A stretch of 64,000 nt of DNA from Acetivibrio thermocellus ATCC 27405 (lineage in GTDB: Bacteria; Bacillota; Clostridia; Acetivibrionales; Acetivibrionaceae). A program made the translations under genes and the position numbers. The stretch spans positions 2,287,081 through 2,351,080 of the forward strand of contig NC_009012.1 of the NCBI RefSeq assembly GCF_000015865.1. Direction: 5' to 3'. The notes below the pieces were generated by a model. The model had not been told where the DNA came from. It was given only the letters and a program-made list of their open reading frames with translations, and did not search any database. Below, piece after piece: positions 1 to 4,197 of the stretch (the stretch's first letter is position 1; every line of letters begins with the position of its first letter).

Positions 1-748
1 TGGTAAGGCATCCGTAAACTATGTATTTACCCAAAGTATCCAGTCTCTTCTGAAGAGGTGTCTGTTCCGTCTCTATATTTTGTATCATGTCAGCAATTTT
101 TCCCATCTCGGTCATCATTCCGGTGGAACAGACAACAGCTTTCCCTCTTCCGCTGGTTACAACCGTTCCCATATATACCGTGCCGTTTCTTTCACCGGCG
201 TTCACATTTTTTCTGCCGCCGGCTTCAACTTGTTTTTCCACAGGCACGGATTCACCGGTCAGCAAAGACTCATCCACACACAGCCCATGGGATTCTATCA
301 GAACGGCATCCGCGGGAATCCTGTCGCCGGTCTCAAGCACCACAAGATCTCCCGGCACAACTTTTTCCGCAGGTATTTCCACGGTTTTTCCGTCCCTTAC
401 CACCTTTGCCACCGGCGCCGCCAGGCTTTTTAACGCCTCCAGGGTTTTTTCGGTCCGATACTCCTGAACAAATCCCATAAGTGCGTTAAGAATAACAATG
501 GACACAATAGTAATTGCTTCTGTCAATTCTCCCATGAAGGCTGAAATCAAGGTGGATGCCAGAAGAATCAACACCATAAAGTCACTGAATTGCGCAATAA
601 GGATCTTAAAAGGAGATATCTTTTTCTTTTCAGCCAAGGTATTTGGCCCATACTTTTTATACCTTTTCTCCGCCTCTTTCTCACTTAACCCGTATTTTAC
701 CTTGTTATCCTTATTGCTGTTTTGCAGAGCCGACTCCAAAATATTCAA
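1..748 (-). CDS. Cation-transporting P-type ATPase (Ca2+-type), N-terminal part, runs off the window
   Basis: This reading frame codes for the first 249 residues of a P2-type cation pump, probably a Ca2+- or Mn2+-type ATPase of the cytoplasmic membrane. It shows the N-terminal cytoplasmic domain (about residues 15-45), a first pair of membrane helices (about 48-95) and the actuator domain with the TGES motif at residues 164-167. The phosphorylation (DKTGT) and nucleotide-binding domains lie outside the window. I chose the TTG start at 746-748 because AAGGAG sits nine bases upstream; the first in-frame TTG follows a stop codon too closely. No ATG fits. The leader is unusual (see 746-865). The exact ion cannot be told from this fragment. 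Confidence 0.88.
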   Translation of the reverse strand, partial: MNILESALQNSNKDNKVKYGLSEKEAEKRYKKYGPNTLAEKKKISPFKILIAQFSDFMVLILLASTLISAFMGELTEAITIVSIVILNALMGFVQEYRTEKTLEALKSLAAPVAKVVRDGKTVEIPAEKVVPGDLVVLETGDRIPADAVLIESHGLCVDESLLTGESVPVEKQVEAGGRKNVNAGERNGTVYMGTVVTSGRGKAVVCSTGMMTEMGKIADMIQNIETEQTPLQKRLDTLGKYIVYGCLT

Positions 749-865
749 AACCAATCACTCCTTTTTGCCTTGTCCCCATGTGCTTATGCCATGTACATTT
801 TCCTGTCATAATCCTATTTCTATTCAGGAATAAGGACAATTAGACCAAAAAAGTGATTGGTTTTG
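746..865 (-). promoter_or_regulatory. Structured 5' leader covering the P-type ATPase ribosome-binding site
   Basis: Bases 746-759 are exactly complementary to 852-865 (14 pairs). After a two-base bulge, 762-767 pair with 846-851. In the minus-strand transcript this stem contains both the AAGGAG ribosome-binding site and the TTG start of the ATPase. Inside the 78-base loop, 770-775 can pair with 834-839, 800-805 with 825-830, and 778-781 with 795-798, giving a compact three-way junction. I do not recognise a known riboswitch class. The base pairing is seen directly; the regulatory role is inferred. Confidence 0.55.
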
Positions 866-900: not shown

Positions 901-2361
901 TCAATCAACACCAAGAACCATTATATGATCAATGTATGGATCCGCCGTGCCTTGCAGCTGGGTTTTCTGCTCCTTCAGTATCTTTATGTAATCCACTATG
1001 TCCTGAGTAATTCTCTCACCCATGCATACAACCGGTATGCCCGGAGGGTAAGCCATAACCATTTCTCCCGATATCTCTCCCACAGATTTGTCCAACGGGA
1101 CTATTTTCTTGGGGCTGTAAAAAGCGTCCCTGGGTGAAACTATCATTTTGGGAGTCGGAGGAATAATCGGCGGTTTGGGATATTCCTTTTTCTCTGTTTT
1201 GGCCGCAATATCTTTCAGTGCGTTTATAAGGGCCACCAAGTTTTCTTCCCTGTCACCTATGCTTACTATTGCCAGTATATTTGAAAGATCCGACATTTCA
1301 ATCTGTATATTGTATTCTTTTCTGAGTTTCGCTTCCATCTCATATCCGGTATATCCCAAGCCTGATACACATATACCCAGTTTTGTTTCATCAAAATCAT
1401 GACATCCCGGTGTTCCTATAAGTTCTTTCCCGAAGGCATACAAACCTTCAATTTTGTTTATCTCCTCTCTTGCCATTCTGGCAAGCCTCAAAGTTTCCTC
1501 CAACATGTCGCTTCCTTTTGTGGCAAGCTGTTTTCTTGCAATGTCAAGGGAACACATCAAAAGATATGATGCGCTGGAAGTATATGTAAGGTTTAAAACC
1601 TGTTTTACTCTTTCAGGGCTGATCATGTTTCCCCTTAAAAGCAGCAAAGAACTTTGTGTCAGTGAACCTCCCGTTTTGTGAGTACTTACGGCACTCATAT
1701 CGGCACCGACTTCCATTGCCGTCAGAGGAAAATCATCATGAAAAGACATATGCGCACCGTGAGCCTCATCCACCAAAACAGCCATTTCGTACCTGTGGGC
1801 AATTCTTACGAGGGATTTTAAATCCGAGGCTATTCCATAATAAGTCGGATTGATAATGAACACAGCTTTTGCATGGGGGTTTTCCTTTATTGCCTTTTTC
1901 AGGCTTTCCACCGTAATTCCCATGGCAATGCCCAGTTTTTCATTTATTTCGGGCTGCACATACACCGGCACGGCACCGCTTAATATAATTCCACCTATCG
2001 TGGACTTGTGCGCATTTCTCGGAAGTATTATTTTGTCTCCCGGTTCACAAGCACTCATAATCATTGCCTGAACACCGGACGTAGTCCCGTTTACCAAAAA
2101 ATAAGCATGCTGAGCCCCAAATGCCTGAGCTGCCAGCATCTCCGACTCATAAATAACCCCCGTGGGGTTGTTGGCAAAATCCAAATCCTCCATACCGTTT
2201 GCATCCATTTTAAGCGCTGTTTCGCCTATATACTCTCTAAGCTCCTCAAGACCAGCTCCCTGCTTGTGACCCGGTACATGAAACTGTATCACATTGCTTT
2301 CAACGTATCTTTTCACAGCATCAAAAACCGGTGTCTTAAGCTGGTTCATTCTTAGCACCAT
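901..2361 (-). CDS. Orn/Lys/Arg decarboxylase family protein (probable arginine or lysine decarboxylase)
   Basis: A 486-residue PLP-dependent decarboxylase of fold type I, the Bacillus SpeA-like group, which makes agmatine or cadaverine for polyamine synthesis. The N-terminal FHVPGHKQG motif (residues 27-35), the DEAHGAH segment (198-204) and the PLP lysine in STHKTGGS (Lys229) are all visible. The C-terminal domain starts around residue 395. The length is normal for the short biosynthetic group that lacks the N-terminal wing domain. The ATG at 2361 follows an AGAGGGG site. It stands alone, about 150 bases upstream of the ATPase and running in the same direction. Substrate choice between arginine, lysine and ornithine cannot be settled by eye. 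Confidence 0.87.
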   Translation of the reverse strand: MVLRMNQLKTPVFDAVKRYVESNVIQFHVPGHKQGAGLEELREYIGETALKMDANGMEDLDFANNPTGVIYESEMLAAQAFGAQHAYFLVNGTTSGVQAMIMSACEPGDKIILPRNAHKSTIGGIILSGAVPVYVQPEINEKLGIAMGITVESLKKAIKENPHAKAVFIINPTYYGIASDLKSLVRIAHRYEMAVLVDEAHGAHMSFHDDFPLTAMEVGADMSAVSTHKTGGSLTQSSLLLLRGNMISPERVKQVLNLTYTSSASYLLMCSLDIARKQLATKGSDMLEETLRLARMAREEINKIEGLYAFGKELIGTPGCHDFDETKLGICVSGLGYTGYEMEAKLRKEYNIQIEMSDLSNILAIVSIGDREENLVALINALKDIAAKTEKKEYPKPPIIPPTPKMIVSPRDAFYSPKKIVPLDKSVGEISGEMVMAYPPGIPVVCMGERITQDIVDYIKILKEQKTQLQGTADPYIDHIMVLGVD

Positions 2362-2493: not shown

Positions 2494-3192
2494 TTATTGG
2501 CCTGTAACCTTTTTCACTCCGTTTACTCTCTGCAACTCATCCATTATTTTTTCTTTAGACATATCAGAGGGCATCTTTACTGCAAATTTTATCAACACTT
2601 CTTCATCTTTTTTCTCATTGATAAACTCTATATTTCTTATTGTTATATTATGCTTACCAAATATACAGCCTATTGTACCAATTTGTCCAGGCAAATCTTC
2701 AGTCTGTATATAGAATATGCTCAGATTGTTTTTTCTGGCAATATGTTTTTCCGTTCTTTTAAGCAAAATAAGTGTAATATAAATAACTATTGTGGATATA
2801 ACCGCTCCTTCATAAAAACCGATACCTGCTGCAATCCCGACACAGGAAACTGCCCACAGGCTTGCCGCGGTAGTAAGGCCCCTGACATTTGCACCCTCAC
2901 GGATTATGGTTCCCGCTCCCAAAAAGCCGATACCGCTGATTACCTGGGCTCCGAGACGGGCAGGATCAAGGTTAGTAATTCCTTTATAACTCTCAAAAAT
3001 ATACTGGGAAGTAATCATGACAAGAGCTGAGCCAACACATACCAAAATATGAGTTCTAAAACCGGCGGGCCTGTTCGTGCTCTCTCTTTCATAACCTATC
3101 AACCCACCCAGGATGCATGCAAGAAGGAGCCTCATAATAACAATTAAATAAAAGCCCCCGTTTTCAAAAAAAGTCCTTATCATATTTATCAT
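2494..3192 (-). CDS. MgtC/SapB family membrane protein
   Basis: A 232-residue inner-membrane protein of the MgtC/SapB family. The N-terminal 140 residues hold about four or five membrane helices, with the family signature LLLACILGGLIGYERE and the RTHILVCVGSAL and GIGFLGAGTI segments. The C-terminal part (about residues 150-232) resembles the ACT-like cytosolic domain, including ITIRNIEF. The family is tied to magnesium-limited growth or to F-ATPase and membrane-potential control in other bacteria; the role here is unknown. A GTG three codons upstream would also be open, but the ATG at 3192 has GAGGTG six bases before it, so I use that. It follows spoIIR in the same direction, beyond a terminator. 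Confidence 0.85.
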   Translation of the reverse strand: MINMIRTFFENGGFYLIVIMRLLLACILGGLIGYERESTNRPAGFRTHILVCVGSALVMITSQYIFESYKGITNLDPARLGAQVISGIGFLGAGTIIREGANVRGLTTAASLWAVSCVGIAAGIGFYEGAVISTIVIYITLILLKRTEKHIARKNNLSIFYIQTEDLPGQIGTIGCIFGKHNITIRNIEFINEKKDEEVLIKFAVKMPSDMSKEKIMDELQRVNGVKKVTGQ

Positions 3193-3344
3193 ACAGCTCA
3201 CCTCGTTTTTGGGGATATAAAAGTTCCGCTTTGCAGAAGGAAGAAATGTCTTACAATAAAAAGTATATATTAAAAGTATATATCAAATGCATGTATATCT
3301 TCAATATACATATATCCTTATTTTTTATAAAGATAAATACAAGC

Positions 3345-3418
3345 AAAAAACCCCGGCATAGTATCGTAACCTGCCACCAACCGTAAAATCCGCTGAAGGA
3401 AGTTACAATACATGCCGG
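3345..3418 (-). terminator. Intrinsic terminator after spoIIR
   Basis: On the minus strand, 3402-3418 can pair with 3353-3370 (CCGGCAT/ATGCCGG, then GTAT/ATAC and GTAAC/GTTAC, with one bulge and one mismatch). A run of six T follows. The loop is long, about 31 bases, so the element could also act as a conditional leader for the MgtC-family gene 150 bases downstream. Confidence 0.7.
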
Positions 3419-3498
3419 AGTCCGCAGCAAAATATTTTGCAAGAATATATTTTGTCAGCCCGAATCACGCCTGTGCATGAATTTTACACTCATACCCG

Positions 3499-4197
3499 TC
3501 ATTGGAATATTTTATTCATTGCGCTCGCAATTTTTATTTTTGACTTCTGAAACATCTCCACAATTTTAAATTTTATCTCGATTTCAATATCGTCGCCTTC
3601 ATCCTGCGCTGTAATAAGATAATACTCCTCTTCGCTTAAAACCTCTTTCAAATCATCCTTTACCGAATCCGGCACAGTCCCGTGAGTGGCATCCACAAAG
3701 CAGAGGGGTGGAAAAAGCACGCACCACCAATTTTGACCTTCACCGTTACCTATAACAACTCTCAAAGCCTGATAATTTCCGGTAGGAAGGCTTATGTCCC
3801 CATAAACCTTGGTTGGAAAAGGATATTTTCCAAACATAACCGTTACGTCATAATCTTTATTCTGCCTTCTGATTTCACTGAGAGCCACCTGTTTTATAGC
3901 TTCTGAGTTTTCTTCTATTATTCTTTTTGTGGTTTCCACATCTTTTACATTTTTAAGCTTGTCCTTCATGAAATTTATTACAACATCCCTGACATCCCTT
4001 TTTAACTGCTGGTCTTCCGGAGAATCACTGTTTGCCAGAACATGCAGACGAATAATATTATCTGCAAGCCCGCTGCTTACATTCTCCGAGTAGGATATTA
4101 ACCCGACGCATGACAGGACTGACACAAAAAGAATGATTGCCGTAAGTACTTTTACAAATATGTTTTTCTTGCCGATGTTATTTGACGAATTCAGCAT
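3499..4197 (-). CDS. spoIIR: Stage II sporulation protein R
   Basis: A 232-residue secreted signalling protein. In the Bacillus/Clostridium sporulation programme SpoIIR is made in the forespore and triggers SpoIIGA to process pro-sigma-E in the mother cell. An N-terminal membrane/signal segment (about residues 13-34) is followed by the family motifs NIIRLHVLANSDSPEDQ and KRDVRDVV, and by the central GNYQALRVVIG and GQNWWCVLFPPLC stretch. The length matches the clostridial family. The ATG follows a GGGGG-rich ribosome-binding site. Its presence indicates a spore former. Confidence 0.93.
   Translation of the reverse strand: MLNSSNNIGKKNIFVKVLTAIILFVSVLSCVGLISYSENVSSGLADNIIRLHVLANSDSPEDQQLKRDVRDVVINFMKDKLKNVKDVETTKRIIEENSEAIKQVALSEIRRQNKDYDVTVMFGKYPFPTKVYGDISLPTGNYQALRVVIGNGEGQNWWCVLFPPLCFVDATHGTVPDSVKDDLKEVLSEEEYYLITAQDEGDDIEIEIKFKIVEMFQKSKIKIASAMNKIFQ

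Follow-up and report, generated by a model that had tools for sequence, protein, structure and literature searches.

The conserved part of the region upstream of a calcium pump gene in the window (the whole 64,000-nucleotide stretch of DNA analysed here, from a replicon that is a single contig of 3,843,301 bases) is a two-box element in the loop of a hairpin, and not the outer stem of that hairpin. Our best explanation, to which we give a probability of roughly 0.45, is that a conserved promoter lies inside a lineage-specific read-through lock in the style of T4 gene e. The hairpin, which covers the ribosome-binding site (RBS) and the start codon of the gene, would probably silence only stray read-through messages from the neighbouring gene and act neither as a metal sensor nor as a heat sensor. 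Where a strong hairpin covers an RBS, its loop can contain the promoter of the gene, and the hairpin then bears on read-through RNA instead of a ligand, which corrects a tempting riboswitch call. The finding also provides, for one order of spore-forming Clostridia, a sharply conserved, promoter-like element of a single gene, that of the calcium pump.

The hairpin and its genomic setting

The hairpin is placed between the 5' part of an ATPase gene (2..748), which runs off the window and is a 907-codon frame in locus L021, and an Orn/Lys/Arg decarboxylase gene (901..2361), its upstream neighbour and a possible source of read-through RNA. A gene for a MgtC/SapB family protein with a C-terminal ACT domain (2494..3201) lies further upstream, and all three genes are on the minus strand. 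The cation P-type ATPase of the original prediction was borne out as a type IIA Ca2+-ATPase, the nearest solved structures being those of the Listeria Ca2+-ATPase lmo0841. We took TTG (748-746) as the start codon, in line with the orthologues. In G004, the ATPase match is split over two separate open frames (contig C172, locus L003), which we attribute to a frameshift or an assembly error. Elsewhere in the window, a strong minus-strand hairpin followed by a T-run (3330-3430; −45.2 kcal/mol, z −7.0) is probably the terminator of the frame at 3499-4197 (minus strand), which lies just 5' of it and was taken for spoIIR.

The outer stem is formed by CAAAACCAATCACT (746-759) and AGTGATTGGTTTTG (852-865), which are exact reverse complements over 14 pairs, and it was recovered as an inverted repeat in a repeat search of the window. 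Its 5' arm (852..865, minus strand) ends four bases upstream of box 1 of the element described below, while its 3' arm (746..759, minus strand) includes the start codon. Six further pairs, TTTTTG (762-767) with CAAAAA (846-851), follow after a two-base bulge (760-761), and both the RBS AAGGAG (760..765, minus strand), assigned from sequence and orthologue comparison, and the TTG lie within the paired region. The pairs, the bulge and the cover of RBS and start codon had been predicted in the same form, though for an unstated strand, and stand. The inner three-way junction stands too: the fold of the minus strand, which is the sense strand, contains inner stems (UUGUCC/GGACAA and UUCCUG/CAGGAA) close to those drawn. 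This fold reaches −46.6 kcal/mol (z −6.6), with the GG of the bulge pairing with U, and that of the plus strand −36.9 kcal/mol (z −4.9); none of 200 shuffles attained either value. Perfect inverted repeats of at least 14 bp, their loops no longer than 120, occurred three times in the real window against a mean of 0.05 in 40 dinucleotide-shuffled windows, two of which contained any. A mobile element with terminal inverted repeats was considered and rejected, as the region is single-copy (one match at E 0.001 in the 3.84 Mb genome), and no plasmid match was found.

Originally, the hairpin had been read as a translational switch that might respond to metal or temperature. Of this reading, the part that holds is that the long RNA hides the RBS and start codon in the predicted fold; a response to metal or temperature found no support. 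No Rfam family reached its gathering score in the window, in agreement with the earlier remark that the consensus of no known class could be seen, and known riboswitches including yybP-ykoY were rejected on this ground. A permissive Rfam scan of 690-920 returned ten weak matches, none of them to a riboswitch. As regards a thermometer, the RBS and start codon are still mostly paired in the predicted fold at 60 °C, which we take to be about the growth temperature of the host organism. A conserved aptamer or thermometer was not found in this region.

Only the window species and two closely related ones have the exact stem, which is absent in three others of the genus. Beyond the window, BLAST matched the intergenic region convincingly in no more than four genomes, all of the genus (G005, G004, G001 and G003; E 1.9e-60 to 5.9e-10). 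The uninterrupted Watson-Crick arm measures 14 bp in the window, 12 bp in both G005 and G004, and 5, 7 and 6 bp in G001, G003 and G002, respectively, where the best runs with G-U pairs allowed measure 13, 10 and 9. Failure of homologous leaders to keep the pairing had been named as a refutation of the switch, and in these last three genomes the arm is not kept. The regions of G001 and G003 do not fold clearly better than shuffles (z −1.1 and −0.2); in their alignment with the window, the outer 5' arm is not kept and TGGTCTA...GAATANAAATAGGAYTATGACAGG and the RBS are retained.

A two-box element upstream of the ATPase gene

On the minus strand, the element consists of box 1, TTGGTCTA (841..848, −35-like), a 15-nt spacer (826..840), which according to alignment and fold also supplies the 5' side of the inner stems, and box 2, GAATAGAAATAGGA (812..825, a −10-like GAATA plus ATAGGA). 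Both boxes were delimited by orthologue alignment, and the consensus reads TTG(GT/TA)CTA-N15-GAATA-NNN-ATAGGAC, or TTGKWCTA-N15-GAATANNNATAGGAC. The two boxes recur upstream of ATPase orthologues from other genera. In a first batch of 36 ATPase upstream regions, 28 scored at least 16 of 20 against the consensus, compared with a single one of 720 shuffles, none of which reached 17. With a second batch added, 47 of the 54 orthologues examined had the element in their upstream region, a count that uses a score above 6, built from 28 of these same sequences, with G002 added by eye. The set of 54 omits G010 (contig edge), G013 (partial genome), G026 and G057. The exact pattern G(GT/TA/TT)CTA-N15-GAATA is present in 43 of the 47; the exceptions are G002 (14-nt spacer), G017 and G040 (14-nt spacer and GCATA) and G038 (weak box 1). 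Box 2 is GAATA in 45 of 47 orthologues, GCATA occurring only in G017 and G040. The alternation of GT and TA in box 1 tracks the base after ATA, which is G in 20 of 21 sequences with GT and in 5 of 21 with TA (uncorrected for kinship).

Of 58 genomes from the order, 42 matched a sequence-only profile of the element, R1, at E 0.001, with one match apiece. Forty of these matches lie upstream of the ATPase (27 in the training set, 13 outside it); the other two are found at a contig end in G057, whose ATPase is on another contig, and antisense within an unrelated gene in G008. G052, whose start codon is doubtful, was counted as lacking the element and has an R1 match about 500 nt before its protein match. 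The next-best match in the genome of the window has an E value of 0.19. Class-wide, R1 matched at E 0.001 in 22 of 391 genomes, 16 in the order and six outside it, and the ATPase was absent among the translations listed for these six. A contig scan with the exact pattern returned 12 contigs, with the ATPase or its leader present on five (L077, L081, L082, L085 and L087); the other seven look like chance hits. Among 20 weaker R1 matches, picked by eye from those ranking below the ATPase sites, seven fall inside an open frame of at least 100 codons. The sites at ArgJ (L232, L233) and a single-strand-binding protein (L242) are weak, and a match before sigK in G018 was rejected as a second target, as its relatives have none. 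Six of the matches (L226-L231, genus g6) keep CTA-N15-GAATA ahead of two kinds of uncharacterised ORF, for one of which Pfam gave a weak PsbP-like match only; these sites may form a small regulon. Our literature search found no description of the two-box element, although one may be in print, and the main text of a study of binding sites in C. thermocellum (PMC8457756) mentions neither a calcium ATPase nor a P-type ATPase.

We consider it quite probable that the element is the ATPase's own promoter. This is the most likely role because the spacing is rigid, the distance to the start codon varies, terminators occur near box 1 and sigma-A promoters are not enriched further upstream. The first T of box 1 and the G of GAATA are 23 nt apart, matching the distance between −35 and −10 boxes, while box 1 and the start codon are 50-178 nt apart across orthologues and the RBS of G033 and G020 lies directly 3' of box 2. 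Terminator-like hairpins just upstream of box 1 or overlapping it were seen in 11 of 47 genomes (3 of 282 shuffles), and the terminator T-tail begins 30 nt before box 1 in G007 and 22 nt before it in G001, which belongs to the same genus as the window. A simple score for sigma-A promoters further upstream, set against shuffles, was significant (p < 0.05) in 1 of 47 genomes, with a median p of 0.61, and such a promoter was rejected as the true start, as G009 alone stands out among the 47. Promoter geometry predicts a transcription start at about 812 (range 811-815). A mapped start downstream of 846 had been named as the other refutation of the switch, and this putative start, predicted from geometry, falls downstream of it.

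In five genomes of family f6, box 1 lies within a terminator loop, and a single stretch of bases seems to serve both the upstream terminator and the ATPase promoter. One pair of the stem differs on both sides between G050 and the other four. The loci concerned (L069, L070, L071, L156 and L158, of the L018 family) carry an intrinsic terminator of the form GCGGCATGG-TCTAAT-CCATGCCGC-TTTT.

Which sigma factor would read such a promoter? No known sigma consensus fitting both boxes was found. A mother-cell promoter of sporulation (sigma-E type), in which ATAGGAC might be a SpoIIID site, is in our view unlikely; this identity would overlap with both the lock and the possibility, discussed below, that the stem is incidental. 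According to PMC3789822, the Ca2+-transporting ATPase CD2833 of C. difficile is down in a sigE mutant (0.22), is preceded by a sigma-E promoter and has a motif that may be a SpoIIID site, which makes sporulation control plausible for the window ATPase as its presumed orthologue. Box 1 also resembles the −35 box of spoIVA in the order (TTGTAATATT; TTGTTCTA in G036 and G025). Outside the order, R1 also matched in two congeners, ahead of a gene that we presume to be spmA, a label for which NCBIfam gave no match. Against sigma-E, 14 of the 24 placed spoIVA regions contain CATATATT (six of 30 were not placed) and three contain AATATATT, the sigK box is mostly of the CATATA type, unlike GAATA, and the element lacks the CATA-type −10 box that spoIVA and sigK have in this order. 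There is one strong site per genome and no visible regulon, the match before sigK in G018 not recurring in relatives. A spoIVA box was not found in the genome of the window; as spoIVA is present in 56 of 58 genomes, its presence cannot discriminate. The sigK upstream regions collected across the order (L246-L275, 30 regions) themselves show a conserved, promoter-like block, GTACTNGCAC...CATATA...TA, in most cases.

A proposed read-through lock and competing readings

Why should a promoter sit within a hairpin, with the 5' arm upstream of box 1 and the 3' arm made up of the RBS and start codon? In a read-through lock, RNA begun at the promoter (about 812) would not contain the 5' arm, its RBS would stay open and it would be translated. 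Read-through RNA from the decarboxylase and MgtC genes would contain both arms and fold, with RBS and start codon hidden, so that the pump would be made only upon firing of its own promoter. We infer here that transcripts do read through into this locus and that translation is stopped by the stem. In folds predicted for 37 °C, the unpaired probability of RBS and start codon is 0.80 and 0.32 in promoter RNA and 0.19 and 0.00 in read-through RNA (from 900); for 60 °C, it is 0.76 and 0.72 against 0.30 and 0.03. The two sites are thus predicted to be paired in the long RNA and free in the promoter RNA, as expected of a lock.

The exact stem may also be incidental: the two boxes would control ATPase transcription as promoter or operator, and the 14-bp stem would be a functionless feature of only three close species. 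We regard this as somewhat unlikely. The boxes are widespread and the stem is not, which fits an incidental stem and weighs against the lock. RBS-complementary arms upstream of box 1 were detected at p < 0.05 in 7 of 47 ATPase genes, those of G032/G054, G045 and G037 differing in sequence from that of the window. A similar test, covering the 140 nt that precede the −10 box, was positive for the ATPase in 6 of 47 regions, for sigK in 4 of 30 and for spoIVA in 2 of 24. Since these frequencies are comparable, the ATPase is not clearly special, another point for an incidental stem and against the lock. However, a perfect stem of this size is rare by chance, as in the shuffled windows above, and it falls exactly on the RBS and start codon. 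An incidental stem also leaves the complementarity between spacer and leader without explanation.

This apparent complementarity was tested on the ATPase upstream regions. The spacer matched its own leader at p < 0.05 (letter shuffles) in 10 of 47 regions, with a Stouffer p of 0.0007 over 26 genera. With one genome for each of the 26 genera, the pairing energy was −1.85 kcal/mol against −0.13 (sd 0.38) with shuffled spacers, a value reached by none of 150 nulls. In a permutation test, 0 of 5000 permutations came up to the observed fit, and in genus g6 (G030, G039) both arms change together. On the other hand, a rank test by genus was not significant (Stouffer p 0.21), reversed spacers and reversed leaders gave −0.8 and −0.4, and once the five best genera had been taken out, the observed value was reached by 2 of 60 nulls. 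A promoter alone does not predict such complementarity; a lock with the promoter as 5' strand does, and so does a leader RNA. It would also allow a small RNA regulator.

A leader RNA would start further upstream, and the boxes would be parts of it: GGUCUA or GUACUA, then a hairpin with the spacer as 5' strand, GAAUANNNAUAGGAC as loop and a 3' strand reaching the leader or the RBS, to which a protein or ligand could bind. Apart from the complementarity, six pairs of the window fold are altered on both sides in the five-genome alignment (matched by 14 of 500 shuffles), but three of them belong to the outer helix, which is poorly aligned and has an unalignable 5' arm. RNAalifold found no common pair over 28 sequences, the 3' partner of the spacer varies and terminators end shortly before box 1 in G007 and G001. 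We consider a leader RNA decidedly improbable. Somewhat less so, yet still quite unlikely, is a gene-specific cassette for Ca2+-ATPases with a double use of the same 15 nt across the order, in DNA as spacer of an unassigned type of promoter (GKWCTA-N15-GAATANNNATA) and in RNA as 5' strand of a hairpin closing the leader or RBS. It would be either a chromosomal lock in the style of T4 gene e that has evolved anew several times or a new, compact leader RNA answering to Ca2+ or a protein.

Comparison with known systems

Like yybP-ykoY (Mn2+) and other metal riboswitches, the hairpin sits before a cation P-type ATPase and folds at the RBS; unlike them, its conserved letters are two boxes at fixed spacing, with no common pairs and no Rfam match. 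In transposase genes of the IS10/IS50 type, an inverted repeat folds only in RNA started outside the element and hides the RBS. The proposed lock would likewise hide the RBS by a fold of read-through RNA, whereas the ATPase region is single-copy and contains no mobile element. With the clostridial sigma-E promoters described in the parts of PMC3789822 and PMC7438776 used here, the element shares the type of gene, the similarity of box 1 to the spoIVA −35 box and a comparable spacing, and it differs from them in GAATANNNATA, which replaces the CATA-type −10 box, and in its one strong site per genome. The read-through lock finds its model in phage T4, where, according to the sections of PMC3014915 drawn on here, late promoters of gene e lie within the 5' strand of a hairpin and the structure cuts lysozyme synthesis 100-fold. 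Unlike the T4 cases, ours concerns a bacterial chromosomal gene and another type of promoter, with start and lock predicted only. As in the leaders of gene e, soc, 49 and I-TevI described there, the RBS and start codon would be hidden in RNA from upstream promoters, and promoter RNA would be made without the 5' strand of the hairpin, as it is in this portion that the promoter lies.
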